A DNA stretch of 59,678 bases from an uncultured Saprospiraceae bacterium (GTDB lineage Bacteria > Bacteroidota > Bacteroidia > Chitinophagales > Saprospiraceae). The stretch spans positions 1 through 59,678 of the forward strand of contig CALAJP010000126.1 in NCBI GenBank assembly GCA_937922815.1, in the 5' to 3' direction. Shown here piece by piece: positions 39,101 to 59,608 of this stretch; the stretch's first letter is position 1; each line of letters begins with the position of its first letter. The notes below the pieces were generated by a model. The model was not told where the DNA came from, made no database searches, and worked only from the letters and a program-made list of their open reading frames with translations. A program made the position numbers and the translations under genes.

Positions 39101-39553
39101 ATGACCCAACTTTTGGGAGAATATGAAGTCAAGGTGGATTCTAAAGGAAGAATCCGAATTCCATCCGATTTGCTTTCGCAAATGGGGGAGGATGCTGAAT
39201 TAGGCTTCGTAATTAACCGAGGGTTTGAAAATAATTTAATGTTGTATCCTAAAAAAGTTTGGGATAAAATCACTGAAGATGTAAATGCGTTGAATCCTTA
39301 TGATCGTAAAAATCAGAAGTTTATTCGTTTTTTTTATAGAGCACAGGAGGTTAAAAAGGATAGTACGGATAGAGTTTTGATTGGAAAGCGATTCCTTGGC
39401 TATGCAAACATATCTTCAAATATGATTCTTTTTGCTTATAACGATAAAGTTGAGTTGTGGGATCCTGAGACTTATGAAGAAAAGATGAATGAAGGGCCGG
39501 AAGATATTTGGGATATAGCTGCGGATGTGATGGGAAACAATAATAGAATTTAA
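39101..39553 (+). CDS. mraZ: Transcriptional regulator MraZ
   Basis: 150 residues, two AbrB-like SpoVT/MraZ modules: LLGEYEVKVDSKGRIRIPSDLL at the N-terminus and KDSTDRVLIGKRFLGYANI in the second half. MraZ forms a ring-shaped oligomer that binds GTGG repeats upstream of its own gene; three such repeats are present. First gene of the division/cell-wall cluster and its likely autorepressor. Confidence 0.95.
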   Translation: MTQLLGEYEVKVDSKGRIRIPSDLLSQMGEDAELGFVINRGFENNLMLYPKKVWDKITEDVNALNPYDRKNQKFIRFFYRAQEVKKDSTDRVLIGKRFLGYANISSNMILFAYNDKVELWDPETYEEKMNEGPEDIWDIAADVMGNNNRI

Positions 39554-39557
39554 TAAG

Positions 39558-40454
39558 ATGACGTATCACGTACCTGTAATGTTGGAACCTTGCTTAGATG
39601 CATTGGATATTAAGCCCGAATCGATTTATGTCGATGTTACATTTGGAGGGGGAGGTCATTCTAGGGCTATCTTGGAAAGGCTAACAACGGGGAAGTTGTA
39701 CGGATTTGATCAAGACGAAGATGCGAAACAGAATATTCCTGAGAATGAAAATTTTGTTTTTGTAGATAGTAATTTTCAGCATCTTAGACGATTTATGAAG
39801 TTGTATAGACAAGTAGGGAAAGTGTCAGGTATTTTGGCTGATTTGGGGGTTTCTTCATATCAGTTTGATACAGCTGAACGTGGTTTTAGTTTTCGTTTTG
39901 ATGGGCCATTAGATATGAGAATGAATCAGGCTACGGAATTGACAGCAGCAACTATTTTGAATACATACTCAGAAACTGAATTGATTAGATTGTTGAGTGA
40001 TTTTGGAGAAGTGAGAAATTCGAAAAGTTTGGCTAGAGCAATTGTTGAACGAAGAGAGAATCAAACTTTTTCTGAAATTCAACATCTAAATAATTTGCTA
40101 GATAAAATGAGAATTGGGGCAGTACCGAAATATTTTTCTACGGTTTATCAAGCATTAAGAATTGAGGTGAATGATGAAATGAAAGCTTTGGAGGATTTTT
40201 TGAAAGATTCGCTAGAAGTTTTAGAGCCAGGAGGGAAATTAGTTGTGATGTCATATCATTCTATTGAAGATCGACTGGTGAAAAGATTTATGAAAACAGG
40301 GAATGTGAAAGGGGAAATGATTAGAGATGAAAAAGGAGTGATTCACAGACCGTTTAAATTAATAACGAAAAAGCCTATTGAAGCGGATGCTAATGAAATT
40401 AAAATAAATTCAAGAGCAAGAAGTGCAAAGTTAAGAATAGCGGAGAAGAAATAA
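39558..40454 (+). CDS. rsmH: 16S rRNA (cytosine(1402)-N4)-methyltransferase
   Basis: 298 residues. YHVPVMLEPCLDAL, the SAM-binding VDVTFGGGGHSRAILERL, DLGVSSYQFDTAERGFSFRFDGPLDMRMN and SYHSIEDRLVKRFMK are diagnostic of RsmH/MraW, which methylates C1402 in the 30S decoding site. It starts 4 bp after mraZ and is followed by ftsL after 7 bp. Confidence 0.97.
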   Translation: MTYHVPVMLEPCLDALDIKPESIYVDVTFGGGGHSRAILERLTTGKLYGFDQDEDAKQNIPENENFVFVDSNFQHLRRFMKLYRQVGKVSGILADLGVSSYQFDTAERGFSFRFDGPLDMRMNQATELTAATILNTYSETELIRLLSDFGEVRNSKSLARAIVERRENQTFSEIQHLNNLLDKMRIGAVPKYFSTVYQALRIEVNDEMKALEDFLKDSLEVLEPGGKLVVMSYHSIEDRLVKRFMKTGNVKGEMIRDEKGVIHRPFKLITKKPIEADANEIKINSRARSAKLRIAEKK

Positions 40455-40461
40455 ATAAAGA

Positions 40462-40779
40462 ATGGCAGTAGATACAAAATCAAGTATAAAACAGTTTTTC
40501 TCATTAGGTCAAGCAGGTACAGATTGGGTATTGGCTAATTTGACCTACTTGTTTTTCTTGGTTTTTTTAGTACTAATATATATAGCAAATGCACATTATT
40601 CGGAGAGTAAAATTCGAAAAATACATTTGTTAACAAACGAAGTAAACGAATTAAGATTTGAATATATGTCTTTACGGTCACAAATCATGTATGAAACTAA
40701 GCAGTCTAAAATTGCTGCTCAGGTTAAAGAATTAGGGCTTCAACGTTCTGATGATAAGGTTTTTGTGATAGAAGATTAA
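40462..40779 (+). CDS. ftsL: FtsL-like division protein
   Basis: 105 residues: a short cytoplasmic N-terminus, one transmembrane helix (YLFFLVFLVLIYIANAHY) and a periplasmic coiled-coil segment (SESKIRKIHLLTNEVNELRFEYMSLRSQ). Size, topology and position between rsmH and ftsI fit FtsL, which with FtsB/FtsQ activates the FtsWI synthase. Sequence identity is low in this family, so the call leans on context. Confidence 0.85.
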   Translation: MAVDTKSSIKQFFSLGQAGTDWVLANLTYLFFLVFLVLIYIANAHYSESKIRKIHLLTNEVNELRFEYMSLRSQIMYETKQSKIAAQVKELGLQRSDDKVFVIED

Positions 40780-40808
40780 TAAATTCAATAAAAATATACT
40801 TTTTTTAA

Positions 40809-42947
40809 ATGAACATTAAAAACGAGGTACTATATCGAGTATATGGAGTAACAGTACTCTTTTTGATATACGGCTTTTTGATTTTAGGAAAAGTAGTTAA
40901 GATTTCCTTTGTAGAAGGAGATTATTGGGTTAGCAAAAGTGATAGCCTGTATTTGAAATATGAAAAAATAGATGCTCAGAGAGGTAATATTTTAGCAAGT
41001 GATGGAAGTTTTTTAGCAACTTCACTACCTTATTATGATATACGTTTCGATTTGAATGCTGCTGGATTAACAAAAGAAATCTTTGATTTGCATGTGGATT
41101 CATTGGCTTACCGACTGGTCGAACATGTCGATAATCGTTATACCGTAGGGGGGATGAAAGAAATGCTTGTCCGTGAAAGAAACAAAGGTCAGAAGTATTT
41201 ACTCATCAAAAGAAATGTAACTCACGAAGAATTGGAATTATATAAAACATTCCCAATTTTTAGGCGAGGACAGTTTAAAGGTGGGTTTATTTATGAGAAA
41301 AAAGCAATTAGAGGAAAACCTTATGGTATGTTAGCACACCGAACGGTTGGTTATGTTCGTAAAGATGCAAAACCTGTCGGTTTGGAAGGTTATTTTAACG
41401 ATGTATTGAGCGGTGAAGAGGGGAAAAGATTAGTGCAGCGAGTTAGTAATAAGGAATATATGCCTGTTTCTGATTTGGCAGATATTCAACCGCATAAAGG
41501 CAAAGATGTTAAAACTACGCTAGATGTTAATATTCAAGATGCTGCTCAATCTGCTTTGATGAGAGGAATGCTTAAGCATAATGCTCAGAGTGGATCAGCA
41601 ATAGTTATGGATGTGAAAACAGGAGCTATTAAAGCAATTGCTAACTTGGGTGTTAAGAAAGACGGCGATTTGTGGGAAAAGTACAATTATGCCATTGGAA
41701 CGCGTATCGAGCCTGGTTCTGTTTTTAAATTGGCTTCTGTGATGGCTCTTTTTGAAGAAGGTTATTCGACAGATACTCCAGTTTTTATAGGCAAAGGAAA
41801 GCATGAGTTTTATGACCAATTAATGATAGATAGTGGAAAAGAAAGTTTTTTATATGATTCTCTTTCGTTAAGAAAAGCATTTGAAATTTCTTCTAACGTA
41901 GGAATTGCTTCTACCATATCAAAACATTTTGGTGAGCCTGGAAGTAGCAGTTGGAGAACTAAAAATGCAAAATTTATCGCTTATTTGGAGCAATTTGGAT
42001 TGGATTTGCCTACAAATATTGAAATAGAAGGAGAGGCTGTTCCTTACATTAAAGATCCATTGGATGTTAAAGATGAATGGAGCGGAACGACACTTCCGTG
42101 GATGTCGATAGGATATGAAACCTTATTTACACCACTTCAAATGTTGAATTTCTATAATACCGTTGCTAATGATGGTAAAATGATGAAACCATACTTAGTT
42201 TCAGAAATTCAAGAAGATGGAGAATGGGTACAATCGTTCAAACCTGTCGTAGTCAAGAAAAAAATTGCATCTAAAGAAACTATTGCAAAAGCTAAAAAAT
42301 TATTGGCAGGAGTAGTCGAAAGCGGAACAGCAAATGCTTTGATGACTAAAAAATATGACTTTGCAGCAAAAACAGGTACTGCTCAATTGGATTATTCCAA
42401 AAAGGCAGAACGATTAAAGCATAGAGCTACTTTTGTTGGGTTTTTTCCCGTTGAAAATCCCATTTATAGCTGTATCGTTACCATAACAGACCCTAAGAAA
42501 TTAGGGATTTATGGGGGAGAAGTTGCAGGACCTATTTTTAGAGAGATTGCTGATAATTGTTATGCTACAAATGTAGATTTGAAAAAAAATGTTGCTGATT
42601 TTCGAAAGCCAATTATCAAAAACGATAAGTTGCCAGTTAATAGCAAAGGCAAATTAGAAGATTATGAGCGTTTGAATGAGTTTTTAGATTTCAAAATTGA
42701 AAAAGAATACAAAAGTGATGATTGGGTTTATTTAAAATCTAGCCAAGACACTTTATTATTAAAAGGACAAGATATAGTAAGTAATATTATTCCAAATGTA
42801 AAAGGAATGGGCTTGCGAGATGCTATTCATGTGCTTGAAAATATGGGACTAAAGGTTATTGTAAGAGGGACGGGCAAAGTTTACCGTCAGTCTATAAAAC
42901 CAGGTACCAAAGCAAGAAGACAACGAATTACGCTCAATTTGGGCTGA
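40809..42947 (+). CDS. ftsI: Division-specific penicillin-binding protein (FtsI/PBP3) with PASTA domain
   Basis: 712 residues. An N-terminal transmembrane anchor (about 10-30), PBP dimerisation domain, and a transpeptidase domain with all three motifs: SVFK (Ser304/Lys307), SSN (361-363) and KTG (521-523). A single C-terminal PASTA module (about 662-712) follows, as is usual for Bacteroidota FtsI. It cross-links septal peptidoglycan together with FtsW. The next reading frame (murE) begins 74 bp downstream. Confidence 0.95.
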   Translation: MNIKNEVLYRVYGVTVLFLIYGFLILGKVVKISFVEGDYWVSKSDSLYLKYEKIDAQRGNILASDGSFLATSLPYYDIRFDLNAAGLTKEIFDLHVDSLAYRLVEHVDNRYTVGGMKEMLVRERNKGQKYLLIKRNVTHEELELYKTFPIFRRGQFKGGFIYEKKAIRGKPYGMLAHRTVGYVRKDAKPVGLEGYFNDVLSGEEGKRLVQRVSNKEYMPVSDLADIQPHKGKDVKTTLDVNIQDAAQSALMRGMLKHNAQSGSAIVMDVKTGAIKAIANLGVKKDGDLWEKYNYAIGTRIEPGSVFKLASVMALFEEGYSTDTPVFIGKGKHEFYDQLMIDSGKESFLYDSLSLRKAFEISSNVGIASTISKHFGEPGSSSWRTKNAKFIAYLEQFGLDLPTNIEIEGEAVPYIKDPLDVKDEWSGTTLPWMSIGYETLFTPLQMLNFYNTVANDGKMMKPYLVSEIQEDGEWVQSFKPVVVKKKIASKETIAKAKKLLAGVVESGTANALMTKKYDFAAKTGTAQLDYSKKAERLKHRATFVGFFPVENPIYSCIVTITDPKKLGIYGGEVAGPIFREIADNCYATNVDLKKNVADFRKPIIKNDKLPVNSKGKLEDYERLNEFLDFKIEKEYKSDDWVYLKSSQDTLLLKGQDIVSNIIPNVKGMGLRDAIHVLENMGLKVIVRGTGKVYRQSIKPGTKARRQRITLNLG

Positions 42948-43021
42948 ATTAATTGTATATAGGTTTTCTGTCAAGATAGAGAATATGGACGCAGAAAAAC
43001 AAAACGAAAAACAAAAAAACA

Positions 43022-44488
43022 TTGACGTCGATCAAACAACTAGTTACAGGTTTCGATAATGAAATCTGTGAAAGCAAATATGATGAAAAAGGTGAGGTTT
43101 TAGGTCTTACCATTGATTCTAGAGCTGTAAAAGCTGGTTGGGCTTTCATTGCCATTAAGGGGTTGGAAGCTGATGGACATCATTTTATTGAAAAGGCTAT
43201 TGCAAATGGTGCAACGCTTATTATTTGTGAAGATTTGACATTTGTCAAGAATGAAAGTGTGGCTTTTATCCAATTCAAGGATACAAGGTCTATTGCTTCG
43301 TTATTGGCGTCTAATTTTTATGAGGCTCCTTCTGATGACGTTAAAGTTATTGGAGTTACAGGGACTAATGGTAAGACATCTGTTGTTTCTATGCTTTATG
43401 ACATGTTTACCAATTTAGGTTTTAAAGTGGCTAAATTATCCACTATCGAAAACCTTATTGGGGACGAAAAGTTAGAAGCAACACATACCACACCAGGACC
43501 AATTGCACTTCAACGATTGTTAAAGATGGCAGTAGATGCTAATTGTTCATATTGTTTTATGGAAGTTAGTTCTCATGCTATTCATCAACATCGAATTGCA
43601 GGGATTGTATTCGCAGGCGGATTGTTTACGAATATTTCTCATGACCATTTGGACTACCATAAAACATTTATGGAATATCTGAATGCGAAAAAAAAGTTCT
43701 TTGACATATTACCAAAGTCGTCGTTTGTGTTATCAAATATTGATGACAAAAATGGACGCGTAATGATGCAGAATACACTGGCGAAGAAGAGCACTTTTGG
43801 TGTTCGTTCTCCAGCAGATTTCAAAGCAAAAATATTGGAGCATACCTTCGAAGGAATGGAATTGAGTATTAATGATATATCAGTTTGGGTTTCTTTGGTG
43901 GGACAATTTAACGCTTACAATATTTTGAGTGTTTTTGCGATTGCGACCAAATTGGGGGTAAATAATGAAGAAGCTCTAATGGCTTGTTCCACTTTGCGAC
44001 CGCCCAAAGGAAGGTTTGATGTTATAATTATTAATAATCGAATCGGAATCGTTGATTATGCACATACACCAGATGCATTGCTCAATGTTTTACAAACGGT
44101 TTTAGAGATTAAAACAGAACAACAGCGGGTAATCACTATAGTAGGATGTGGTGGTGACCGAGACAAGAAGAAAAGACCACTTATGGCTAAAATTGCTACG
44201 CAATGGAGCCAGAAAGTAATCTTAACTTCCGATAACCCTCGTACCGAAGACCCTAATACTATTTTGAAAAATATGGAAGAAGGAGTGGATGAAAAATCAG
44301 TACACAAAGTTCTCTCAATAGTGGATAGAGACCAGGCTATAAAAACAGCAGTTATGCTTTCTAATAAGAATGATATTATTTTGTTAGCGGGCAAAGGTCA
44401 TGAATCTTATCAAGTTATTGGGAAAACAAAACATGTTTTTGATGACAAAATTCAGTTGTCGAAAGCATTAAACCAAATTCAGGAATAA
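43022..44488 (+). CDS. murE: UDP-MurNAc-tripeptide synthetase MurE
   Basis: 488 residues from a TTG at 43022, the only plausible in-frame initiator. Mur-ligase P-loop TGTNGKTS (113-120), central domain with HDHLDYH, and the SDNPRTEDP motif, whose DNPR sequence marks meso-diaminopimelate as the added amino acid. An ATG at 42985 opens a frame one base out of register; removing one A from the seven-A run at 43013-43019 would join it to murE, adding MDAEKQNEKQKT. Either TTG is the start, or there is slippage or an error in the run. Otherwise an ordinary member of the family, in the expected place. Confidence 0.9.
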   Translation: MTSIKQLVTGFDNEICESKYDEKGEVLGLTIDSRAVKAGWAFIAIKGLEADGHHFIEKAIANGATLIICEDLTFVKNESVAFIQFKDTRSIASLLASNFYEAPSDDVKVIGVTGTNGKTSVVSMLYDMFTNLGFKVAKLSTIENLIGDEKLEATHTTPGPIALQRLLKMAVDANCSYCFMEVSSHAIHQHRIAGIVFAGGLFTNISHDHLDYHKTFMEYLNAKKKFFDILPKSSFVLSNIDDKNGRVMMQNTLAKKSTFGVRSPADFKAKILEHTFEGMELSINDISVWVSLVGQFNAYNILSVFAIATKLGVNNEEALMACSTLRPPKGRFDVIIINNRIGIVDYAHTPDALLNVLQTVLEIKTEQQRVITIVGCGGDRDKKKRPLMAKIATQWSQKVILTSDNPRTEDPNTILKNMEEGVDEKSVHKVLSIVDRDQAIKTAVMLSNKNDIILLAGKGHESYQVIGKTKHVFDDKIQLSKALNQIQE

Positions 44489-44558
44489 AGAAACCTTTGT
44501 GATGAGTTTCGCTAAGAAATTCAAAACAATATTATAAAAAAATTGAACTACTATATTT

Positions 44559-45803
44559 ATGCTCTATCACCTTTTTGACTATCTGGAACAATTGAACTAC
44601 TCTGGTGCAGGAGTTTTTCAATATATCACATTTAGAGCAGGTGCAGCCGTATTGTTGGCATTGTTTATATCTTTTTATTTTGGTCAATCCATTATTTATT
44701 ATCTACAAAAACAGCAGATAGGAGAGACGGTAAGAGATTTGGGTCTGGCAGGACAAATGGCAAAACAAGGCACCCCAACTATGGGCGGTGTCATAATTGT
44801 TATTTCTATTTTAGTTCCTTGTTTGTTATTTGCTCGATTAGACAATGTATATATCTTATTGATGATTGTATCAACACTCTGGTTAGCATGTATTGGCTTT
44901 TTGGATGATTATATAAAAGTATTCAAGAAAGATAAAGAGGGATTAAAAGGCAAATTCAAGGTTTTAGGTCAAATTGGCTTAGGAATTATAGTAGGGGTAA
45001 CCATGTTATTAAGCGACGATATCGCAATAAGATTGGATACCAATGAAGCCAAAGAACTAGGATATACCGAATCGTTGAAAGATTTCAAAACAGTAGAAGG
45101 AGAAAAAGTAGCTTATTATAAATCTACGATGACAAACATGCCTTTTCTGAAGGACAACTCTTTAGATTATGCAGATTTTTTGTTCTTTTTAGATGATGAT
45201 ACAGCTCAAAAATATGCTTGGGTTGTGTTTTTATTTGCAATTATATTCATAATCACAGGTGTTTCTAATGCAGCAAATTTGACAGATGGAATAGATGGTT
45301 TAGCAACAGGCATAAGTGGAATTATTGGTTTTACACTTTTAATCTTAGCTTATGTAAGTGGAAATGTAGTTGCTGCAGATTATTTAGATATTCTGTTCAT
45401 CCCTCATACGGGTGAATTAGTAATATTCTGTGCATGCTTTTTGGGTGCATGCGTGGGTTTTTTATGGTACAATGCATACCCTGCACAAGTTTTTATGGGT
45501 GATACAGGCAGTTTAACACTCGGAGGGATTATTGCTGCTTTGGCAATTCTTATTCGAAAAGAACTCCTTATACCAATCTTGTGTGGGGTATTTTTAATCG
45601 AAACATTGTCTGTAATACTACAAGTTTATTATTTTAAATATACCCGAAAAAAGTATGGAGAAGGTCGTAGACTTTTCAAAATGTCGCCTATTCATCACCA
45701 TTTTCAAAAAATGGAAATACCCGAGCCTAAAATTGTAACTCGGTTTTGGATAGTGGGCGTTTTTTTGGCAATAGTTACGATACTTACTTTAAAAATTAGA
45801 TAA
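44559..45803 (+). CDS. mraY: Phospho-N-acetylmuramoyl-pentapeptide transferase
   Basis: 414 residues, about ten transmembrane helices. GTPTMGGVIIV, FLDDYIKVFKKDKEGLKGKFK, NLTDGIDGLATG, MGDTGSLTLGG and SPIHHHFQKM are MraY signatures. It makes lipid I on the inner face of the membrane. An insert of about 60 residues (near 145-210, soluble and acidic) lies between helices, a feature of Bacteroidota MraY. A 70-bp gap precedes it; murF, which sits here in proteobacteria, is absent. Confidence 0.95.
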   Translation: MLYHLFDYLEQLNYSGAGVFQYITFRAGAAVLLALFISFYFGQSIIYYLQKQQIGETVRDLGLAGQMAKQGTPTMGGVIIVISILVPCLLFARLDNVYILLMIVSTLWLACIGFLDDYIKVFKKDKEGLKGKFKVLGQIGLGIIVGVTMLLSDDIAIRLDTNEAKELGYTESLKDFKTVEGEKVAYYKSTMTNMPFLKDNSLDYADFLFFLDDDTAQKYAWVVFLFAIIFIITGVSNAANLTDGIDGLATGISGIIGFTLLILAYVSGNVVAADYLDILFIPHTGELVIFCACFLGACVGFLWYNAYPAQVFMGDTGSLTLGGIIAALAILIRKELLIPILCGVFLIETLSVILQVYYFKYTRKKYGEGRRLFKMSPIHHHFQKMEIPEPKIVTRFWIVGVFLAIVTILTLKIR

Positions 45804-45811
45804 AACTACTA

Positions 45812-47080
45812 ATGAGAATTGTAATATTAGGGGCTGGAATTAGCGGCGTAGGAGCTGCTAAATTAGCAAAACATCTTGATTTTGACGTTTTTGTTTCCGA
45901 CAAGGGACCAATTTCGATAGAATATAAAGACCAATTAGAGAAACTTAATATTACTTATGAAGAAAACACACACACGGAATCTCAAATTTTGAATGCCGAT
46001 TTAGTGGTTAAAAGCCCTGGTATTCCGAACCACATTCCATTATTAAAAAAAATAAAAGCAAAAGATATTTCTATTGTTTCGGAAATAGAGTTTGCTTACC
46101 CCCATACAAAAGCTAAAATAATTGCTATTACGGGAAGTAACGGAAAAACAACTTCTACTTCTTTGTTATATCATATTATGAAAGCTGCCAAATTAGATGT
46201 TCAAGTTGGTGGAAATATTGGGAATAGTTTCGCTGAACTGTGTGTTTCAAACTCTGCTAAATATGTAGTGTTGGAGCTTAGTAGTTTTCAGTTAGACCAT
46301 ATCCATTATTTTAAACCTTATGTATCAATCGTATTGAATATTACTCCAGACCATTTGGAAAGATATGATTACGAAATGACTAATTACATCAACGCTAAGT
46401 TGAATATCATTCGCAACCAAGAAAAAGAAGACACTTTTATTTTTAATCAAGATGATAAAAATATTAGTTCAGGAATGAAAATGTTAGAATTGAAGCCGAC
46501 ACTTCTTCCTGTTTCTGTAAACGATGAATATGAAAGTTTTAATTTTGAAACCGCTAGCTTAAAAGGGAAACACAATTTATTTAATATGAAATGTGTCATA
46601 AAAGCTGCTGAACTATTAGGAATTGAAAAACATATTATTCAAAAAGGTTTAGAAACATTTAAGCCTCGACCGCATAGACTACAATTTATTGAGTCGATAA
46701 ATGGGGTAGATTTTATAAATGATTCTAAAGCTACAAATGTTGAAGCCACTTATTTTGCATTGGAAGCCATGAAAAAACCAGTGGTTTGGATTGTAGGAGG
46801 AGTGGATAAGGGCAATAAATATAAAGAATTAGAGACTTTGGTGATAAATAAAGTGAAAGCTTGTGTTTTTTTGGGGATTGATAACCAAAAACTGATTCAA
46901 AGCTTTGGGAAGCATAAAAAATATGTAGAAACCAAATCAATGGACGAAGCAATCACAAAAGCAAAAGAATTTGCAAGATCAGGAGACGTAGTTTTACTAT
47001 CGCCTGCTTGTGCAAGTTTTGATTTATTTAAAAATTATGAAGATCGTGGAAATCAATTTATTGACTACGTGAAAAAATAA
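45812..47080 (+). CDS. murD: UDP-MurNAc-L-alanine:D-glutamate ligase
   Basis: 422 residues. N-terminal Rossmann domain (MRIVILGAGISGVGAAKLA), P-loop GSNGKTT (108-114), the LNITPDHLERYD motif, and SKATNVEATYFALE with VGGVDKG, typical of MurD. It adds D-Glu to UDP-MurNAc-L-Ala in the cytoplasm. It follows mraY by 8 bp. An 87-bp spacer with a short ATGATGG/CCATCAT dyad separates it from ftsW. Confidence 0.96.
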   Translation: MRIVILGAGISGVGAAKLAKHLDFDVFVSDKGPISIEYKDQLEKLNITYEENTHTESQILNADLVVKSPGIPNHIPLLKKIKAKDISIVSEIEFAYPHTKAKIIAITGSNGKTTSTSLLYHIMKAAKLDVQVGGNIGNSFAELCVSNSAKYVVLELSSFQLDHIHYFKPYVSIVLNITPDHLERYDYEMTNYINAKLNIIRNQEKEDTFIFNQDDKNISSGMKMLELKPTLLPVSVNDEYESFNFETASLKGKHNLFNMKCVIKAAELLGIEKHIIQKGLETFKPRPHRLQFIESINGVDFINDSKATNVEATYFALEAMKKPVVWIVGGVDKGNKYKELETLVINKVKACVFLGIDNQKLIQSFGKHKKYVETKSMDEAITKAKEFARSGDVVLLSPACASFDLFKNYEDRGNQFIDYVKK

Positions 47081-47167
47081 TATAGAATACAAATGATGGA
47101 ATCAGTTAACCAAAACGAACCATCATTTACAATAATAGGTAACTGAAACATTGAATAATCTTACAAA

Positions 47168-48301
47168 ATGACTTTAAGTAAAAGTATTACTGCAAGGTTG
47201 GGAGGAGATAAACTAATATGGTTGATAATCATATTGTTGACGGCTGTGTCTTTGATAGCAGTATATAGTTCTACGGGTACTATTGCTTACAAAGACAGAG
47301 GAGGAAATACCGAGTATTACTTATTCAAACACGGAGTTATTGTTTTTTTAGGCTTATTAATTACCATCGTTTTATATAGAGTTCATTATCTCAAATTTTC
47401 TAAAATAGCCCCGTTTTTATGGCTGTTGAGCATACCGCTGTTGATATTTACCGTCTTTTTTGGTGCGGAAGTAAACGATGCGAGAAGATGGATAACGTTG
47501 CCTATTATTAACTTAACGTTCCAGACTTCTGATTTTGGAAAACTAGCATTGATCATCTATTTAGCCAGAACTATTTCTGCAAAACAAGAATATATTTCAG
47601 ACTTTAAAAGTGCATTTGTTCCGATAATAGTACCTATCATTTTAACCTGTGGTTTGATAGCACCAGCTGATTTATCATCAGCCTTATTGTTATTTTTAAC
47701 ATGTTTTATAATGATGTTTATAGGAAGGGTTCATTATAAGTTTTTGTTATTATTGTTAGCAGGAGGAATGGTAGCTTTCGCATTTTTGATTTTGTTGTCC
47801 GCATTTTTTCCAGACTTTATCCGTCAAGAAACATGGATTTCGAGAATACAAGAATTTGTGATGAATTCGGATGGGGGATATCAAATTCAACAATCCAAAA
47901 TTGCCATTGCTAAAGGAGGTTTTTTTGGGTTAGGGCCAGGGAATAGCATTCAAAGAAACTTTTTACCGTCACCATATTCAGATTTTATTTATAGCATTAT
48001 TTGTGAGGAATTTGGTTTAATAGGAGCTTTTTTGATAGTTGCTATTTATTTAGGCTTGTTTTTAAGGACAGTATCATTGGTAACAAAATCACCAAAGGCA
48101 TTTGGGGCTATGTTAGCAATGGGACTTAGTGTGAGTTTAGTATTACAAGCACTAACAAATATGGCGGTTTCGGTACATTTAGTTCCTGTTACGGGACTGA
48201 CGTTGCCAATGGTAAGTATGGGTGGAACTTCATTAATTTTTACGAGTATGTCATTCGGTATTATTCTGAGTGTTAGTCGTTATATCGAAAAACTAAATTA
48301 A
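47168..48301 (+). CDS. ftsW: Septal peptidoglycan glycosyltransferase FtsW
   Basis: 377 residues, ten predicted membrane helices, SEDS family: VNDARRWITLPIINLTFQTSDFGKLALI, GGYQIQQSKIAIAKGGFFGLG, SDFIYSIICEEFGLIGA and PVTGLTLPMVSMGGTS are classical (each given in part). It polymerises lipid II with FtsI at the septum. The stop shares one base with the ATG of the MurG-MurC fusion. Confidence 0.95.
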   Translation: MTLSKSITARLGGDKLIWLIIILLTAVSLIAVYSSTGTIAYKDRGGNTEYYLFKHGVIVFLGLLITIVLYRVHYLKFSKIAPFLWLLSIPLLIFTVFFGAEVNDARRWITLPIINLTFQTSDFGKLALIIYLARTISAKQEYISDFKSAFVPIIVPIILTCGLIAPADLSSALLLFLTCFIMMFIGRVHYKFLLLLLAGGMVAFAFLILLSAFFPDFIRQETWISRIQEFVMNSDGGYQIQQSKIAIAKGGFFGLGPGNSIQRNFLPSPYSDFIYSIICEEFGLIGAFLIVAIYLGLFLRTVSLVTKSPKAFGAMLAMGLSVSLVLQALTNMAVSVHLVPVTGLTLPMVSMGGTSLIFTSMSFGIILSVSRYIEKLN

Positions 48302-50808
48302 TGGGGAGCACACAAGAAAAGTTAAAAGTAATTATCTCTGGCGGAGGTACAGGAGGACATATTTTTCCTGCATTAGCAATTGCTGAAGCATTGAAAAAAA
48401 AGGTATCTGATATTGAGTTTTTGTTCGTAGGGGCAGAAGGCAAGATGGAGATGACAAAAGTACCTAAAGCAGGTTATAAAATAATAGGTTTACCTATTCG
48501 AGGTTTTAGTAGGAAAATAAATTTTAAAGGAATAATTCATAACATTGAAACATTGCTTAGTTTGGGGCGTAGTATGTTGAAGGCTAAAAAAATAGTAACG
48601 AGTTTTAAACCTGATTTTGCTATCGGAGTTGGAGGTTATGCTAGTGGACCTATGCTAAAGGCTTCTGTTCGTAAAAACGTTCCTATTTTTCTCCAAGAGC
48701 AAAATTCTTTTGCGGGTTTGACTAACAAACTTTTAGCAAAAGAAACCCAAAAAATCTGTGTCGCCTATGATGGCATGGAGAAGTTTTTCCCAAAATCCAA
48801 AATAATTAAAACAGGTAATCCTGTTCGTGAAAGTATTTGTAATATTAATATTTCTAAAAAAGAAGGTTTAGAAATATTGAAATTCGATACTCATAAGCCA
48901 TTAGTACTCCTGATGGGAGGAAGTGGTGGTGCTAGAACATTGAATGAGGCGATGAAAAATGCTTTAGAACTCATCAAAAAGAATGAGAATATTCAATGGT
49001 TGTGGCAATGCGGAGCGTATTACTTGAATGAATATAAAAATTGTGAAGTTGCTCAATTAGATAATGTGACTATTACTGCCTTTATTGAAAATATGTCGGC
49101 AGCATATGTAGCATCGGATATTGTGATTGCTAGAGCAGGAGCGTTAACTATTTCTGAATTGTGTGTATTGGGCAAGCCCAGTATTTTAGTACCTTCTCCA
49201 AATGTTGCTGAAGACCACCAAACTCATAATGCAATGGCGTTGGTGAATAATGATGCCGCTTTGATAGTAACAGATGTTGATGCTAAAACTAATTTAGTGG
49301 TAAAAGCAATCGAATTAATTGAAAATAAAAAGGAAGCTAAAAAGTTAGCTGCTAATATAACAAGAATGGCAAGTTATGCTGCTGCTGACCAAATCGCCGA
49401 TGTGATTTTGGAAGCTTCTGGAGTAACTATTGATAAAAATGAAGATTTCTTTTCAGGTATTCAATCTGTTTTTATGATTGGAATTGGAGGAATTGGAATG
49501 AGTGCAATTGCTAGGTATTTGAAGAATAGAGGTATTGATGTGATGGGTTACGATAAAACTCAAACAAAATTGACCAATCAGCTTGAAAAAGAGAATATTA
49601 AAATTATCTTTGACGAAAATATTGAGTTAATTCCAAATCTAATTGATTTGGTGATTTACACCCCAGCCATACCAGATGGTCAACTTCAATTGACTCATTT
49701 TAAAAACTGCACATCCATACCTGTTTTAAAGAGAGCCGAAGCGTTAGGTAAGATAAGTAAAGAGAAAAAAACTTATGCTATCGCAGGTACTCATGGCAAA
49801 ACTTCAACATCAACTTTGCTCAGCCATTTACTAATAGCCGGAAATAAAGATATTTCAGCAATTTTAGGCGGTATCGTATCTGACTGGGGAAGTAATTTTA
49901 AGCATGGTGAATCAAATGTTTTAGTCGTAGAAGCAGACGAATATGATAAGTCGTTTTTGCATCTTAAACCAAATGCCGCTTCTATTCTTTCTGTCGATGC
50001 AGACCATTTAGATATCTATGGAGATAGAAAATTAATGCTTGCGGAAGGATTTGGAGCGTTTATCAATAAGATAGAAACAGGAGGGACTTTATTAATTCCT
50101 TTTGAAGCCAGAAAACTTGAAATTTTTAATAGAAAAGACATTAATATTTTAACTTTTGGAATAGAAGAAGGAGACATACAAGCAAAAAATGTAAGGGTAG
50201 AAAATGGCACATTTGTTTTCGATTTTTATGCCAATGAGTTAGAAGTGAAGAATTTTAAAACTCATTTTGTCGGAAAACATAATGTATTGAACGCTATTAA
50301 TGCGATTTATTTATCGATGTTAGAAGGTGTTAATGCAGAAGATTTGAAAAAAGGATTGTCCGAATTCAAAGGAATTAAAAGACGGTTCGAAATTATAAAA
50401 GAAGTAGAAAACAAAATTTATATAGATGATTATGCACATCACCCAACTGAAATAAAGGCTGCTTGGCAAACTGTCAATGAATTATATCCTAATAGAAAAA
50501 AATTAGTGGTTTTTCAGCCTCATTTGTTCTCTAGGACTAAAGATTTTGCCACTGAATTTGCTGAGGTGTTAGATGATATGGAACAATTAATTCTGGTTGA
50601 TATTTACCCTGCGAGAGAGCTACCTTTTGACGGAATAACTAGTCAAATCATTATTGATAAAATGACTAAAAATAATAAAATAAAGCCAGTAGCATTGGAA
50701 AATGTGTTGGATGAAATAAAGAAATATAATTACGAAGTAATATTGACATTAGGAGCAGGAAACATAGATACTTTGATTGATAAAATAGCAGATACTTTAG
50801 AAAAATAA
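48301..50808 (+). CDS. murG-murC: MurG-MurC fusion protein
   Basis: 835 residues in one uninterrupted frame. Residues 8-370 are MurG: GGGTGGH (14-20), GVGGYASGP (109-117), LQEQNSFAGLTNKLL, MGGSGGARTLN (205-215) and RAGALTISEL (278-287), the lipid I to lipid II GlcNAc-transferase. A linker of about 18 residues (372-389) leads into MurC: IGIGGIGMS (393-401), P-loop GTHGKTST (496-503), EADEYDKSF, DADHLDIYGD and DDYAHHPTEI, the UDP-MurNAc:L-alanine ligase. All key motifs of both enzymes are present, so both should be active. Gene order is the normal one; only the stop/start between them is lost. It overlaps ftsW by one base and abuts ftsQ directly. Confidence 0.95.
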   Translation: MGSTQEKLKVIISGGGTGGHIFPALAIAEALKKKVSDIEFLFVGAEGKMEMTKVPKAGYKIIGLPIRGFSRKINFKGIIHNIETLLSLGRSMLKAKKIVTSFKPDFAIGVGGYASGPMLKASVRKNVPIFLQEQNSFAGLTNKLLAKETQKICVAYDGMEKFFPKSKIIKTGNPVRESICNINISKKEGLEILKFDTHKPLVLLMGGSGGARTLNEAMKNALELIKKNENIQWLWQCGAYYLNEYKNCEVAQLDNVTITAFIENMSAAYVASDIVIARAGALTISELCVLGKPSILVPSPNVAEDHQTHNAMALVNNDAALIVTDVDAKTNLVVKAIELIENKKEAKKLAANITRMASYAAADQIADVILEASGVTIDKNEDFFSGIQSVFMIGIGGIGMSAIARYLKNRGIDVMGYDKTQTKLTNQLEKENIKIIFDENIELIPNLIDLVIYTPAIPDGQLQLTHFKNCTSIPVLKRAEALGKISKEKKTYAIAGTHGKTSTSTLLSHLLIAGNKDISAILGGIVSDWGSNFKHGESNVLVVEADEYDKSFLHLKPNAASILSVDADHLDIYGDRKLMLAEGFGAFINKIETGGTLLIPFEARKLEIFNRKDINILTFGIEEGDIQAKNVRVENGTFVFDFYANELEVKNFKTHFVGKHNVLNAINAIYLSMLEGVNAEDLKKGLSEFKGIKRRFEIIKEVENKIYIDDYAHHPTEIKAAWQTVNELYPNRKKLVVFQPHLFSRTKDFATEFAEVLDDMEQLILVDIYPARELPFDGITSQIIIDKMTKNNKIKPVALENVLDEIKKYNYEVILTLGAGNIDTLIDKIADTLEK

Positions 50809-51606
50809 ATGAATAAAGAAACTAAAAATATAAAATATAGATTAAAAAAGCCTTTTAGATACGCTCTTTGGGGGCTAGGTGTTCTATGCTTATGCATGGT
50901 TTTGGTTTCTGCTATGGGGAGTAGTTCTAATAAAACAGTTTCTAATGTACGAGTAGAAATTATTCCAACAGAAGAGAATCAGTTGTTGGTAACTAAAAAA
51001 GATGTTTTATCAGCTATCGTAAATCAATACCCACATGATATTAATACCGTTGTTATTAGTAAAATAGAGGTGATGGAAATTGAAAGTATTATAGAAAAAG
51101 TGCCTTTCGTTTCTGATGCTGAAGTATATTTTGATGCACAACAGAATTTGCATATCTCGATTGCTCAAGAAAAACCATTGGTAAGAATAATGGCAGAAAA
51201 TGGAGATAATTATTATTTGAATAAAGAGGCAAAACATATTCCGCTATCTAACCATGCAACTCCTAGAGTCTTGGTGGTTACAGGGAACGTACCCAAATAT
51301 AGTAGAAATGAAGACGGGTTAAGAGGAGAGAAGTTAAAGGAATTGTTTTATGTGGTCGAAAAAATCACAAATGATGATTTCTATAATCCATTAATTGAAC
51401 AAATTAATATAAACCAAGAAGGACAATACGAATTAGTACCTAAATTAGGAAAACATACCATTTTATTGGGTAGTTCAGAAGATTTAGATATTAAGTTTCA
51501 TAAAATAAAAAAAATTTACAAAGAAGTTTTTTCTCGCAAAGGTTGGCAACACTATAGTCTTATAGATGTCTCCTTCAAAGGACAGGCGGTTTGTAAAAAA
51601 GATTAA
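50809..51606 (+). CDS. ftsQ: Cell division protein FtsQ
   Basis: 265 residues: short basic cytoplasmic tail, one transmembrane helix (about 17-36), then a POTRA-like and FtsQ beta domain (KVPFVSDAEVYFDAQQNLHI, IAQEKPLVRI). Position between murC and ftsA and topology fit FtsQ/DivIB. The ATG follows the previous stop without a gap. Confidence 0.88.
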   Translation: MNKETKNIKYRLKKPFRYALWGLGVLCLCMVLVSAMGSSSNKTVSNVRVEIIPTEENQLLVTKKDVLSAIVNQYPHDINTVVISKIEVMEIESIIEKVPFVSDAEVYFDAQQNLHISIAQEKPLVRIMAENGDNYYLNKEAKHIPLSNHATPRVLVVTGNVPKYSRNEDGLRGEKLKELFYVVEKITNDDFYNPLIEQININQEGQYELVPKLGKHTILLGSSEDLDIKFHKIKKIYKEVFSRKGWQHYSLIDVSFKGQAVCKKD

Positions 51607-51667
51607 CACGAAAACAAATAATTTACTAAACAAACTTACAATTAACAGAACCAAAATATTTTAAGAC

Positions 51668-53023
51668 ATGCAACAATTTAATCAACAAAAAAAGATGGTT
51701 GTAGCCATAGACATTGGAACTACAAAGGTAGTGGCAATGGCAGGCTATAAAGATCACAATAACAAGATTGAGATTAAAGGAGTGGGAAAGGTAGAGAGTG
51801 ATGGTGTCTCAAGAGGAGTTGTGATTAATATTGATAGAGTAGTTAAATCTATCAGTGAAGCCGTTGCAATTGCACAAAAACACATCGATGAACCCATCAC
51901 TGATGTATATGTGGGAATAGCTGGACAACACATCCGTAGTCTTCAACATAGAGGAGTATTAACGAGAAATAATACATTAAGTGAAATTTCTCAGTCTGAT
52001 ATTGATGCATTGATTAATGATATGCATAAACTAGTATTGCCTCCTGGTGATAAAATCTTACATGTAATTCCTCAAGAATACACTGTAGATAATGAGACTG
52101 TGATAGGTGACCCTATCGGGATGTCAGGAGTAAGAATGGAAGCTAATTTCCATATTATTACAGGACAACAAACAGCTTCTAATAATATTACTAGATGTGT
52201 ATCTAAAGCAGGTTTAAATATAAAAAATATTACGCTTGAACCTATTGCTTCTGCCGCTGCTGTATTAAGTGAGCAAGAAAAAGAAGCAGGTGTAGTTTTG
52301 GTTGATATAGGAGGAGGCACAACTGATGTTACTATCTTTTACGAAGGAATCATTAGACATACTGCAGTTATTCCTTTAGGGGGACATGTTATTACAAAAG
52401 ACATTAAGGACGGCTGCAAAATAATGATTAAAGATGCAGAAAAACTTAAAGTAAAACAGGGCTGTGCATTGGCAGAAGAAGTATTGGAAGATAGAATTAT
52501 TTTGATTGATGGCTTGGTTGGTAGAGAACCAAAGCAAATTTCAAAAATTAATTTAGCAAAAATCATTGAAGCTAGAGTCGAAGAAATACTTGAATATTTA
52601 AGTTACGAAATAGAAAATGCGGGTTTTGACCCAATAGATTTGATTGGAGGAGTCGTTTTGACTGGTGGTGGAGCACTATTAGATCAAATTATTAAATCTG
52701 TAGAATATATGACGGGAATGAATTGCCGTCTTGGAATCCCATCAGATAGGTTAGCTCATGGTTATAATGAAGAAATGACTTCACCTAAAATGTCAACAGC
52801 TTTAGGTTTGTTGATTCTTGGAATTGAAAGTGAAGAAAGGTTTGAGAAATTTGCATTAAAAGAAGGTGTTGTTAATAATGACACTTCCGATAAATCAGAT
52901 AACGCTCATAGCCAACGAACTGATGAAGATAACCCATCTACGGATAGTCAATCTTTTATGCAGAAACTCTTCAATGGTGCGAAAGAGTTTTTTAACGAAC
53001 CACTAGAGTCTGACTTTAAATAA
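51668..53023 (+). CDS. ftsA: Cell division protein FtsA
   Basis: 451 residues, actin-like ATPase: VVAIDIGTTKVVAMAGY (phosphate 1), VVLVDIGGGTTDVTIF (phosphate 2), GGVVLTGGGALLD (adenosine), and an SHS2-type 1C domain (VYVGIAGQHIRSLQHRG). The C-terminal peptide MQKLFNGAKEFFNEPLE is the amphipathic membrane anchor. It tethers FtsZ filaments to the membrane. Confidence 0.96.
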   Translation: MQQFNQQKKMVVAIDIGTTKVVAMAGYKDHNNKIEIKGVGKVESDGVSRGVVINIDRVVKSISEAVAIAQKHIDEPITDVYVGIAGQHIRSLQHRGVLTRNNTLSEISQSDIDALINDMHKLVLPPGDKILHVIPQEYTVDNETVIGDPIGMSGVRMEANFHIITGQQTASNNITRCVSKAGLNIKNITLEPIASAAAVLSEQEKEAGVVLVDIGGGTTDVTIFYEGIIRHTAVIPLGGHVITKDIKDGCKIMIKDAEKLKVKQGCALAEEVLEDRIILIDGLVGREPKQISKINLAKIIEARVEEILEYLSYEIENAGFDPIDLIGGVVLTGGGALLDQIIKSVEYMTGMNCRLGIPSDRLAHGYNEEMTSPKMSTALGLLILGIESEERFEKFALKEGVVNNDTSDKSDNAHSQRTDEDNPSTDSQSFMQKLFNGAKEFFNEPLESDFK

Positions 53024-53067
53024 AAGTCTTCTCGATTTAAATTTTTAAAATTAAAAACAATCAAATT

Positions 53068-54492
53068 ATGATTTTCGATATACCCAAAAATGAACCCTCT
53101 ATAATTAAAGTTTTAGGTGTAGGAGGAGGTGGTTCTAATGCTGTTTCTTTCATGTATAAAGACGGAATTGTAGGCGTTGAATTCGGAATTTCAAATACTG
53201 ATGCTCAAGCATTGGAAGTAAGCCCCGTACCTACAAAAATTCATTTAGGTCCAACTTTGACCGAAGGGAGAGGAGCAGGTTCAAAACCTCAAGTTGGAAA
53301 ACAAGCTTGTTTAGAATCTACGGATGCTATAAACGAATTTTTAGGAGACGAGACCAAAATGTTGTTCATTACTGCTGGTATGGGAGGTGGAACAGGAACA
53401 GGTGCAGCACCTGTAATTGCTCAGGCCGCTAGAGAAAAAGATATTCTTACTATCGGTATTGTTACCGTTCCTTTTCAATTCGAAGGTAGAAGAAGAAAAG
53501 AATTAGGAATTGCAGGCTTGGAAGAGTTAAAAAAACACGTAGACACTATCGTTGTCGTTTCTAATGATAAATTAAGAGAGATGCATGGAGATTTGAAAAT
53601 CTCTGAGGCATTCGGAAAAGCAGATAATATATTAGCGACGGCGGCAAAAGCTATTGCTGAAATTATTACCGTACCAGGCTATATTAACGTGGATTTTGAA
53701 GATGTAAACTTCGTTATGAGAGATAGTGGAGTCGCAATCCTTGGAAATGGCGTAGCTGATGGAGAGGGAAGAGCAATGGCTGCTATTGACGCTGCTTTAC
53801 ATTCTCCGTTATTAGAAGATAATAATATTCGTGGTGCTCAATGTGTATTGGTTAATATTACTTCGGGTTCTAAAGAAGCAACTATGGACGAAATTAGTGC
53901 CATAAATGATTTCGTTCAAGAAGAAGCAGGTGAAGGAACCGATTTGATTTGGGGAAACTGTTATGATGAATCTTTAGGTGATGCATTGAGAGTTACCGTT
54001 ATTGCGACGGGGTTTCAAAAAAAGGCTGAACAACAGCGTTTGACGATCAATCAAGAAAAACCAAAAGTGGTTAATTTAGACGAAAGAGATGAGAGTAATG
54101 CGTTGTATGCATTAGGTAGTGATGCCGAGCCAATGAGTATCGAATTGGAGGCTCCTGCATCTAGAAAATATTCAAGAAAAGAAATTTTGAATATGAAGCA
54201 TACGAACCGAGAGCCTCAACACAATGACTATGACCCATTTGAAGAGGAACGAAACCGTTTGAAAATGGAGCGTATGAAAAGAATGAATGCTCGTAGAGCA
54301 AAAGCAGCAAAACCTAACAATATTCAAAAAGATTTAAAATCTATCGAAGACGAACCAGCATACAAAAGAAAGAAGGTTCATTTAGATGATTTGAAAGATG
54401 ATGAAACTGAATTTTCAAGACATACAATAAACGAACAAAATGAATTTGACGCATATTCAAACAATTCATTTTTGCATGATAATGTAGATTAA
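53068..54492 (+). CDS. ftsZ: Cell division protein FtsZ
   Basis: 474 residues. GTP-binding loops GGGGSNA (19-25) and the tubulin signature GGGTGTG (106-112), T7-loop region VNVDFEDV-like (INVDFEDVNFVM). A long charged linker follows the core, with a C-terminal peptide (DEPAYKRKKVHLDDL) that should bind FtsA, and then a tail of about 35 residues beyond it. Last gene of the cluster; a strong terminator lies 34 bp downstream. Confidence 0.97.
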   Translation: MIFDIPKNEPSIIKVLGVGGGGSNAVSFMYKDGIVGVEFGISNTDAQALEVSPVPTKIHLGPTLTEGRGAGSKPQVGKQACLESTDAINEFLGDETKMLFITAGMGGGTGTGAAPVIAQAAREKDILTIGIVTVPFQFEGRRRKELGIAGLEELKKHVDTIVVVSNDKLREMHGDLKISEAFGKADNILATAAKAIAEIITVPGYINVDFEDVNFVMRDSGVAILGNGVADGEGRAMAAIDAALHSPLLEDNNIRGAQCVLVNITSGSKEATMDEISAINDFVQEEAGEGTDLIWGNCYDESLGDALRVTVIATGFQKKAEQQRLTINQEKPKVVNLDERDESNALYALGSDAEPMSIELEAPASRKYSRKEILNMKHTNREPQHNDYDPFEEERNRLKMERMKRMNARRAKAAKPNNIQKDLKSIEDEPAYKRKKVHLDDLKDDETEFSRHTINEQNEFDAYSNNSFLHDNVD

Positions 54493-59218: not shown

Positions 59219-59608
59219 TTAGTACTTACGATTATCTGGGTGGTTCACATTATAAACACGTTTAAATTGCAAACTTCTTGAACCAAAATTAATCAATAAA
59301 CCAATAGGTAGATTATAAGCTTCGCAATAATTCATAGCTTGAGCAAGGTGGACATCTTCAAGTTTAATAACAGCTTTTAGTTCAAGCATAATTTGGCCTT
59401 CCACAAAAAAGTCCACTCTCCTTTTTCCGATATGATTTTCTTCATACAATATGCCCATTTCCATTTCTCTAAGGAAAGAAAGCCCTTGGTTTTTCATTTC
59501 AATCGCCAAAGCTCTTTGATAAATCACCTCTTGAAAGCCATTCCCCAAGGTAGAATGAACTTTCATAGCACAACCAATTATCTTATGTGTCAATTCTTTC
59601 TTTTCCAT
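59219..59608 (-). CDS. GxxExxY family protein
   Basis: 129 residues. The family motif is at GNGFQEVIY; the body has the PD-(D/E)xK-like pattern RRVDFFVEGQIMLELKAV, with the E-L-K triad that resembles a nuclease core, and the terminal LLINFGSRSLQFKRVYN. The function of this family is not established. Such genes are often scattered in Bacteroidota genomes. Here it is a lone gene beside an inverted repeat. The last 70 bp of the window upstream of it show nothing further. Confidence 0.85.
   Translation of the reverse strand: MEKKELTHKIIGCAMKVHSTLGNGFQEVIYQRALAIEMKNQGLSFLREMEMGILYEENHIGKRRVDFFVEGQIMLELKAVIKLEDVHLAQAMNYCEAYNLPIGLLINFGSRSLQFKRVYNVNHPDNRKY

Follow-up and report, generated by a model that had tools for sequence, protein, structure and literature searches.

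A single reading frame for MurG and MurC in the dcw cluster of an uncultured Saprospiraceae bacterium, and its recurrence among Bacteroidota

The murG–murC Frame and Its Genomic Setting

The window analyzed here comprises positions 1–59,678 of contig CALAJP010000126.1 (assembly GCA_937922815.1) of an uncultured Saprospiraceae bacterium. Within its dcw cluster, one forward-strand frame carries both the glycosyltransferase MurG and the ligase MurC, essential enzymes of cell-wall synthesis that adjacent but distinct genes usually encode, and the following features can be delineated:

39101–54492, plus strand: dcw cluster surrounding the fusion, delimited from the ORF list, with Mur ligase profile matches for the genes placed as murD and murE
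47168–48301, plus strand: ftsW, whose stop codon shares one base with the murG start (TAATG)
48301–50808, plus strand: murG–murC fused gene, ATG start, 835 codons, no internal stop
48301–49407, plus strand: MurG module (residues 1–369; TIGR01133, N- and C-terminal GT28 domains), predicted N-acetylglucosaminyltransferase converting lipid I to lipid II
49408–49467, plus strand: linker of 20 residues (370–389) between the two profile matches, placed by the profile bounds
49468–50784, plus strand: MurC module (TIGR01082), three Mur ligase domains
50785–50808, plus strand: C-terminal residues of MurC and stop codon TAA, from the ORF reading
50809–51606, plus strand: ftsQ-like gene, named by position, with its ATG immediately after the TAA of the fusion

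Profile searches recovered both enzymes at full length. The murG profile TIGR01133 matched residues 5–369 with 280.6 bits (cut-off 250.25, E 1.6e-83), covering positions 3–353 of 353, and the murC profile TIGR01082 matched residues 390–828 with 393.8 bits (cut-off 335.1, E 1.2e-117), covering positions 2–447 of 449. Pfam domains follow the same order along the protein, with both GT28 domains (PF03033 and PF04101) preceding the three Mur ligase domains. Two complete profiles within a single frame are far beyond chance. The bifunctional MurC-Ddl family (NF011171) was considered as an identity and rejected, the protein scoring 223.1 against a cut-off of 1015 and matching only positions 8–446 of the 809-position profile.

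Conserved motifs are found in both halves. Residues 9–334 of the MurG module align with E. coli MurG (1f0k), with the GGTGGH and GALT-SE regions conserved, and alignment of the MurC module with solved MurC showed all of the P-loop GTHGKT, EADE, DADHLD, DDYAHHP and FQPH..SRT motifs matched. An AlphaFold2 model of the whole chain, built from a 22-row alignment (mean pLDDT 87.5, pTM 0.63), consists of two well-folded modules and a connecting loop (residues 374–388) to which DSSP assigns no regular structure, and Foldseek matched the modelled modules to solved MurC and solved MurG. The pTM value fits an undefined mutual arrangement of the two predicted modules, without being proof of it.

An earlier note, made from the letters of the window, had proposed MurG and MurC in one polypeptide within the dcw cluster. 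This core observation stands: the 835-codon frame is free of stops and both domain identities pass their profile cut-offs, the proposed limits (residues 8–370 and about 390–835) are correct within a few residues, and the surrounding ORFs and nearby Mur ligase matches bear out the position in the cluster. From the sequences, we take the gene order to be presumably mraZ, mraW, an ftsL-like gene, a penicillin-binding protein gene with PASTA domains, murE, mraY, murD, ftsW, murG–murC, an ftsQ-like gene, ftsA and ftsZ; ftsW is presumed from its sequence and from gene order. Near the end of the window, a 129-residue ORF on the minus strand (59219–59608) presumably encodes a protein resembling the GxxExxY family.

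The genome is a draft of 3.88 Mb in 308 contigs, 96.57% complete, in which searches with the TIGR profiles found the halves of the fusion to be the sole MurG and the sole MurC over cut-off. On another contig (C14; L002:1501–2802, minus strand), 434 residues of a MurC/Mpl-like ligase were matched with scores below both cut-offs (255.1 against 335.1 for MurC and 177.3 against 388.7 for Mpl). This ligase could conceivably be a second source of MurC activity in the genome.

The Junction Between the Two Modules

The junction in the window was read from a draft assembly, and the possibility of an artefact was assessed by comparison with loci where murG and murC are separate genes. The linker contains neither an in-frame stop nor an in-frame ATG, and three further features lie at or near it:

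49431 (TGA), 49434 (TAA) and 49440 (TGA), plus strand: out-of-frame stops (frame +2), from sequence reading
49439–49441, plus strand: out-of-frame ATG (frame +1) that follows an A-run and reads ATGAAG, some 14 codons ahead of the GIGG motif of MurC
49474–49476, plus strand: first in-frame ATG past the MurG module (M392), falling within MurC's first predicted strand (residues 389–393)

In separate loci, the start of murC falls within a narrow zone. From a sample of 204 such loci, in which some genomes are counted repeatedly, 4 were dropped for lack of the GIGG motif, and an in-frame ATG, GTG or TTG was present within the 17 codons at positions −21 to −5 from this motif in 199 of the remaining 200. 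The corresponding zone of the window contains none. The out-of-frame ATG at 49439 and the stops around it are either a product of chance, a relic of an old gene boundary, or the sign that the real start of murC is masked by the loss of one base from the sequence.

In favour of this last option, in which a base missing from the window's sequence has joined two overlapping genes, are the draft state of the genome, the A-rich surroundings of this ATG and its place within the zone where murC commonly starts, and the existence of a one-base case among the fusions identified (G312, see below). One base missing between 49439 and about 49475 would let murC start at ATG 49439 and murG end at the stop at 49512, giving an overlap of 76 nt. 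Against this, overlaps reach no more than 23 nt across 169 separate loci when the ATG nearest the domain is taken as the murC start. Larger values are obtained if the farthest in-frame ATG is taken instead, namely 137 nt in L028 (G001) and 97 nt in L120, L121, L127, L138, L139 and L140 (genomes G717, G822 and G821), so that some separate loci would show overlaps of 97–137 nt if these upstream ATGs were true starts. The stops at 49431–49440 could be used only with two indels, and five fused genomes beyond the family of the window show that the architecture itself is real. With this evidence on both sides, we regard a sequencing or assembly artefact at this locus as very improbable.

Distribution of the Fusion

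Among 1,117 genomes searched (G000–G1116), 7 of which gave no match (6 in the family set and 1 in the class set), at least 8 are fused: G000 (the genome of the window), G031, G312, G587, G794, G757, G576 and G710. This is a lower bound, because the search could overlook fusions in which the linker breaks the match into two parts. Every match spanning both genes was read on DNA, namely 36 in the family set, 47 in the class set and 67 in the phylum set, these sets partly overlapping.

Matches were obtained in 392 of the 398 genomes of the window's family, and 36 of these 392 contained a single match across both genes; a stop separates the genes in 33, and 3 are fused (G000, G031 and G312). The class sample, in which 394 of 395 genomes gave a match and 47 matches spanned both genes, added G587, G794, G757, G576 and G710 on the DNA level, and in the phylum sample (345 genomes) the window's own fusion was the only fused one among the 67 spanning matches. 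Long open-frame values had also suggested fusions in G018, G023, G035, G286 and others, which were rejected since their DNA shows a stop between the genes. Among the 1,117 genomes searched, no other species of the genus to which the window belongs was found. In a contig scan of named genomes, 15 loci were retrieved, with all titles presumably belonging to Bacteroidota; both genes were present in 13 of them, the MurC half was not found in 2, and none was fused.

Outside the window's family, the fusions belong to two families. Family f70 (17 genomes) contains 3 fused genomes, all of genus g241, along with 11 in which the genes are separate and 3 that are not judgeable (G811 and G776 are without the genes, and G823 has them on two contigs). 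Three of the four sampled species of g241 are fused (G587, G794 and G757), the fourth being among these non-judgeable genomes. In family f83, both sampled genomes are fused (G576 and G710) and they represent two different genera. The fused frame of G757 ends at a contig end. When six of the fused proteins (those of G000, G031, G312, G587, G794 and G710) were scanned with the profiles, MurG was over cut-off in all six and MurC in five, the MurC half of G587 falling slightly under (332.4 against 335.1).

Separate murG and murC genes lie close together, with a median gap of 6 nt over 172 loci that were partly selected for closeness. Unusually long gaps occur at L084 (G018; at least 648 nt) and L091 (G069; at least 840 nt). 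At the locus of Persicobacter sp. CCB-QB2 (L066), murC is spread over two frames matching query residues 387–526 and 520–832, which reflects either a frameshift or an error in the sequence of the public genome.

Repeated Origin and Retention

A tree of 86 loci was computed from joined MurG and MurC sequences, with nearly the whole linker excluded. Mapping the fusion state on this tree requires at least five changes of state. G031 clusters with two genomes of its genus that lack the fusion (G226 and G156) and G312 with one such genome of its own genus (G280), both groupings at 100% SH-aLRT, while the g241 fusions form one clade and the f83 fusions another. The row of the window lies within a 13-row clade at 98% support, inside which the branching is unsettled. 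A single clade uniting G000, G031 and G312 was rejected (p-AU 2.9e-47, 30 rows), for a group that was picked after the first tree.

One of these cases calls for caution. Compared with the junction of G280 (L092), that of G312 (L059) contains one extra A in an A-run, by which a 4-nt ATGA overlap becomes a fused frame, and the murC ATG is kept. From its sequence, this junction may be a sequencing error, a very young change or fusion, or a slippage site, and the G312 fusion is considered suspect. Without it, four fused lineages are left. The fusion is retained in two lineages, across three species of g241 and across two genera of f83.

Proposed Product and Possible Benefit

Collectively, these data make it quite probable that in the window murG and murC, neighbours in the dcw cluster, have truly been fused into one gene, most likely yielding one 835-residue bifunctional enzyme. 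The fusion would have arisen by loss of the murG stop and of the murC start. In the pathway, MurC forms UDP-MurNAc-L-Ala, MurD, MurE, MurF and MraY act thereafter, and MurG produces lipid II. Both activities would be preserved in the simplest mechanism, a bifunctional chain whose active sites work independently of each other; the N-terminal half would transfer GlcNAc onto lipid I at the membrane and the C-terminal half would add L-alanine onto UDP-MurNAc. Since the two steps are non-consecutive, direct channelling of an intermediate between the sites is precluded. The predicted consequences are instead a MurG:MurC supply locked at 1:1, i.e., equal dosage, and a MurC that the short flexible linker would keep beside membrane-bound MurG.

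It can also be proposed that this one frame gives rise to two proteins, a free MurC being released through internal initiation or proteolysis. The in-frame GTG at 49402, TTG at 49408 and ATG at 49474 are possible internal starts, and Bacteroidota frequently initiate translation without a Shine-Dalgarno site. Nevertheless, the window has no start codon in the zone that holds one in nearly all separate loci, and initiation at ATG 49474 would, according to the predicted structure, cut the first strand of MurC. We thus find a separately released MurC unlikely in the window and favour a single unprocessed product. Four of the eight fused genomes (G312, G757, G794 and G710) do possess an in-frame candidate start 9–13 codons before the MurC motif, and free MurC may therefore arise there.

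Whether the tether would bring any advantage is a distinct question. There is roughly an even chance that the fusion is a neutral read-through, in which a stop was lost between close and often same-frame genes, the halves working as before and the tether having no role; this reading leaves room for a bifunctional product and rivals only a benefit. The 36 matched family genomes with one match across both genes, most of them still holding a stop in between, point in this direction, as do the short distances between separate genes (bearing in mind that these loci were partly chosen for closeness) and the sporadic nature of the fusions, the congeners of G031 and G312 being unfused. Neutrality is less easily reconciled with the persistence of the fusion in three species of one genus and in two genera of another family, or with a murC start zone that is empty in four of the eight fused genomes, although retention over such divergence is possible even without benefit. 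A selective explanation for the recurrence and persistence of the fusion in this phylum, according to which MurC normally belongs to a MurG-centred complex and the tether would hold this first ligase where lipid II is made at the membrane, matching precursor supply to use, is put forward only tentatively and appears rather doubtful. The data speak neither for nor against the coupling of supply to demand suggested in the earlier note, and a fusion as such does not demonstrate it.

Relation to Known Fusions

The MurG-MurC fusion is a kind already known, in print since 2016. Fusions of MurG and MurC are reported, with the actinomycete C. gilvus (murG/murC) given in the legend of Figure 3 (Laddomada et al., 2016, PMC4929429), and a 2019 paper includes the MurG and MurC pair in its list of fusions, discussing their non-consecutive steps (PMC6420597). 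In Frankia, a murG-murC operon that is unfused has been described (PMC7231273). The earlier note was not aware of a well-described MurG-MurC fusion; this is fair as far as "well-described" goes, and the two papers of 2016 and 2019 show that the pair itself had been described. Among the matches listed in the literature searches, assessed from titles and the opening lines of abstracts and with most subscription journals outside the search, none dealt with a biochemical characterization of a MurG-MurC fusion or named one in Bacteroidota. The presence and repeated origin of the fusion in this phylum, as well as its retention in two lineages, are new as far as these searches show.

As in the fusions noted by Laddomada et al. 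(2016), the dcw genes murG and murC form one gene in the window, and these authors stress that the steps are non-consecutive. C. gilvus belongs to another phylum, and a separate origin of the two fusions is likely because at least five changes of state are found within the window's phylum alone.

Other fusions join MurC or another Mur enzyme to different partners. Bordetella pertussis MurE-MurF similarly unites two Mur enzymes in one polypeptide, but these are two ligases of consecutive steps, without a glycosyltransferase; according to PMC6420597, the protein is expressed, elongated and flexible, with its active sites apart, and interacts with MurG. MurC-Ddl (NF011171), for which the same paper cites Chlamydia, resembles the fusion described here in joining MurC to an enzyme of a non-adjacent step and differs in its partner, Ddl.

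Naturally occurring gene fusions hint that the enzymes they join lie close together, and here a pair drawn from both ends of the cytoplasmic pathway has been fused about five times in one phylum. This repeated fusion agrees with the multi-enzyme complex centred on MurG that PMC4929429 and PMC6420597 propose, and MurG-MurC fusions would provide ready-made single-chain constructs for testing such a complex.

MurC is also joined to another pathway enzyme in the MurB/MurC fusion of Verrucomicrobium spinosum, whose partner MurB, unlike MurG, acts one step before MurC; as described in PMC4803751, this protein complements E. coli mutants defective in murB or in murC and is conserved through whole lineages. 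A related arrangement was observed in G464 (L111:577–2871, minus strand), where the murC frame continues into a MurB domain to give 764 amino acids, with FAD_binding_4 and MurB_C at residues 499–758, MurC coming first as in the Verrucomicrobium fusion.
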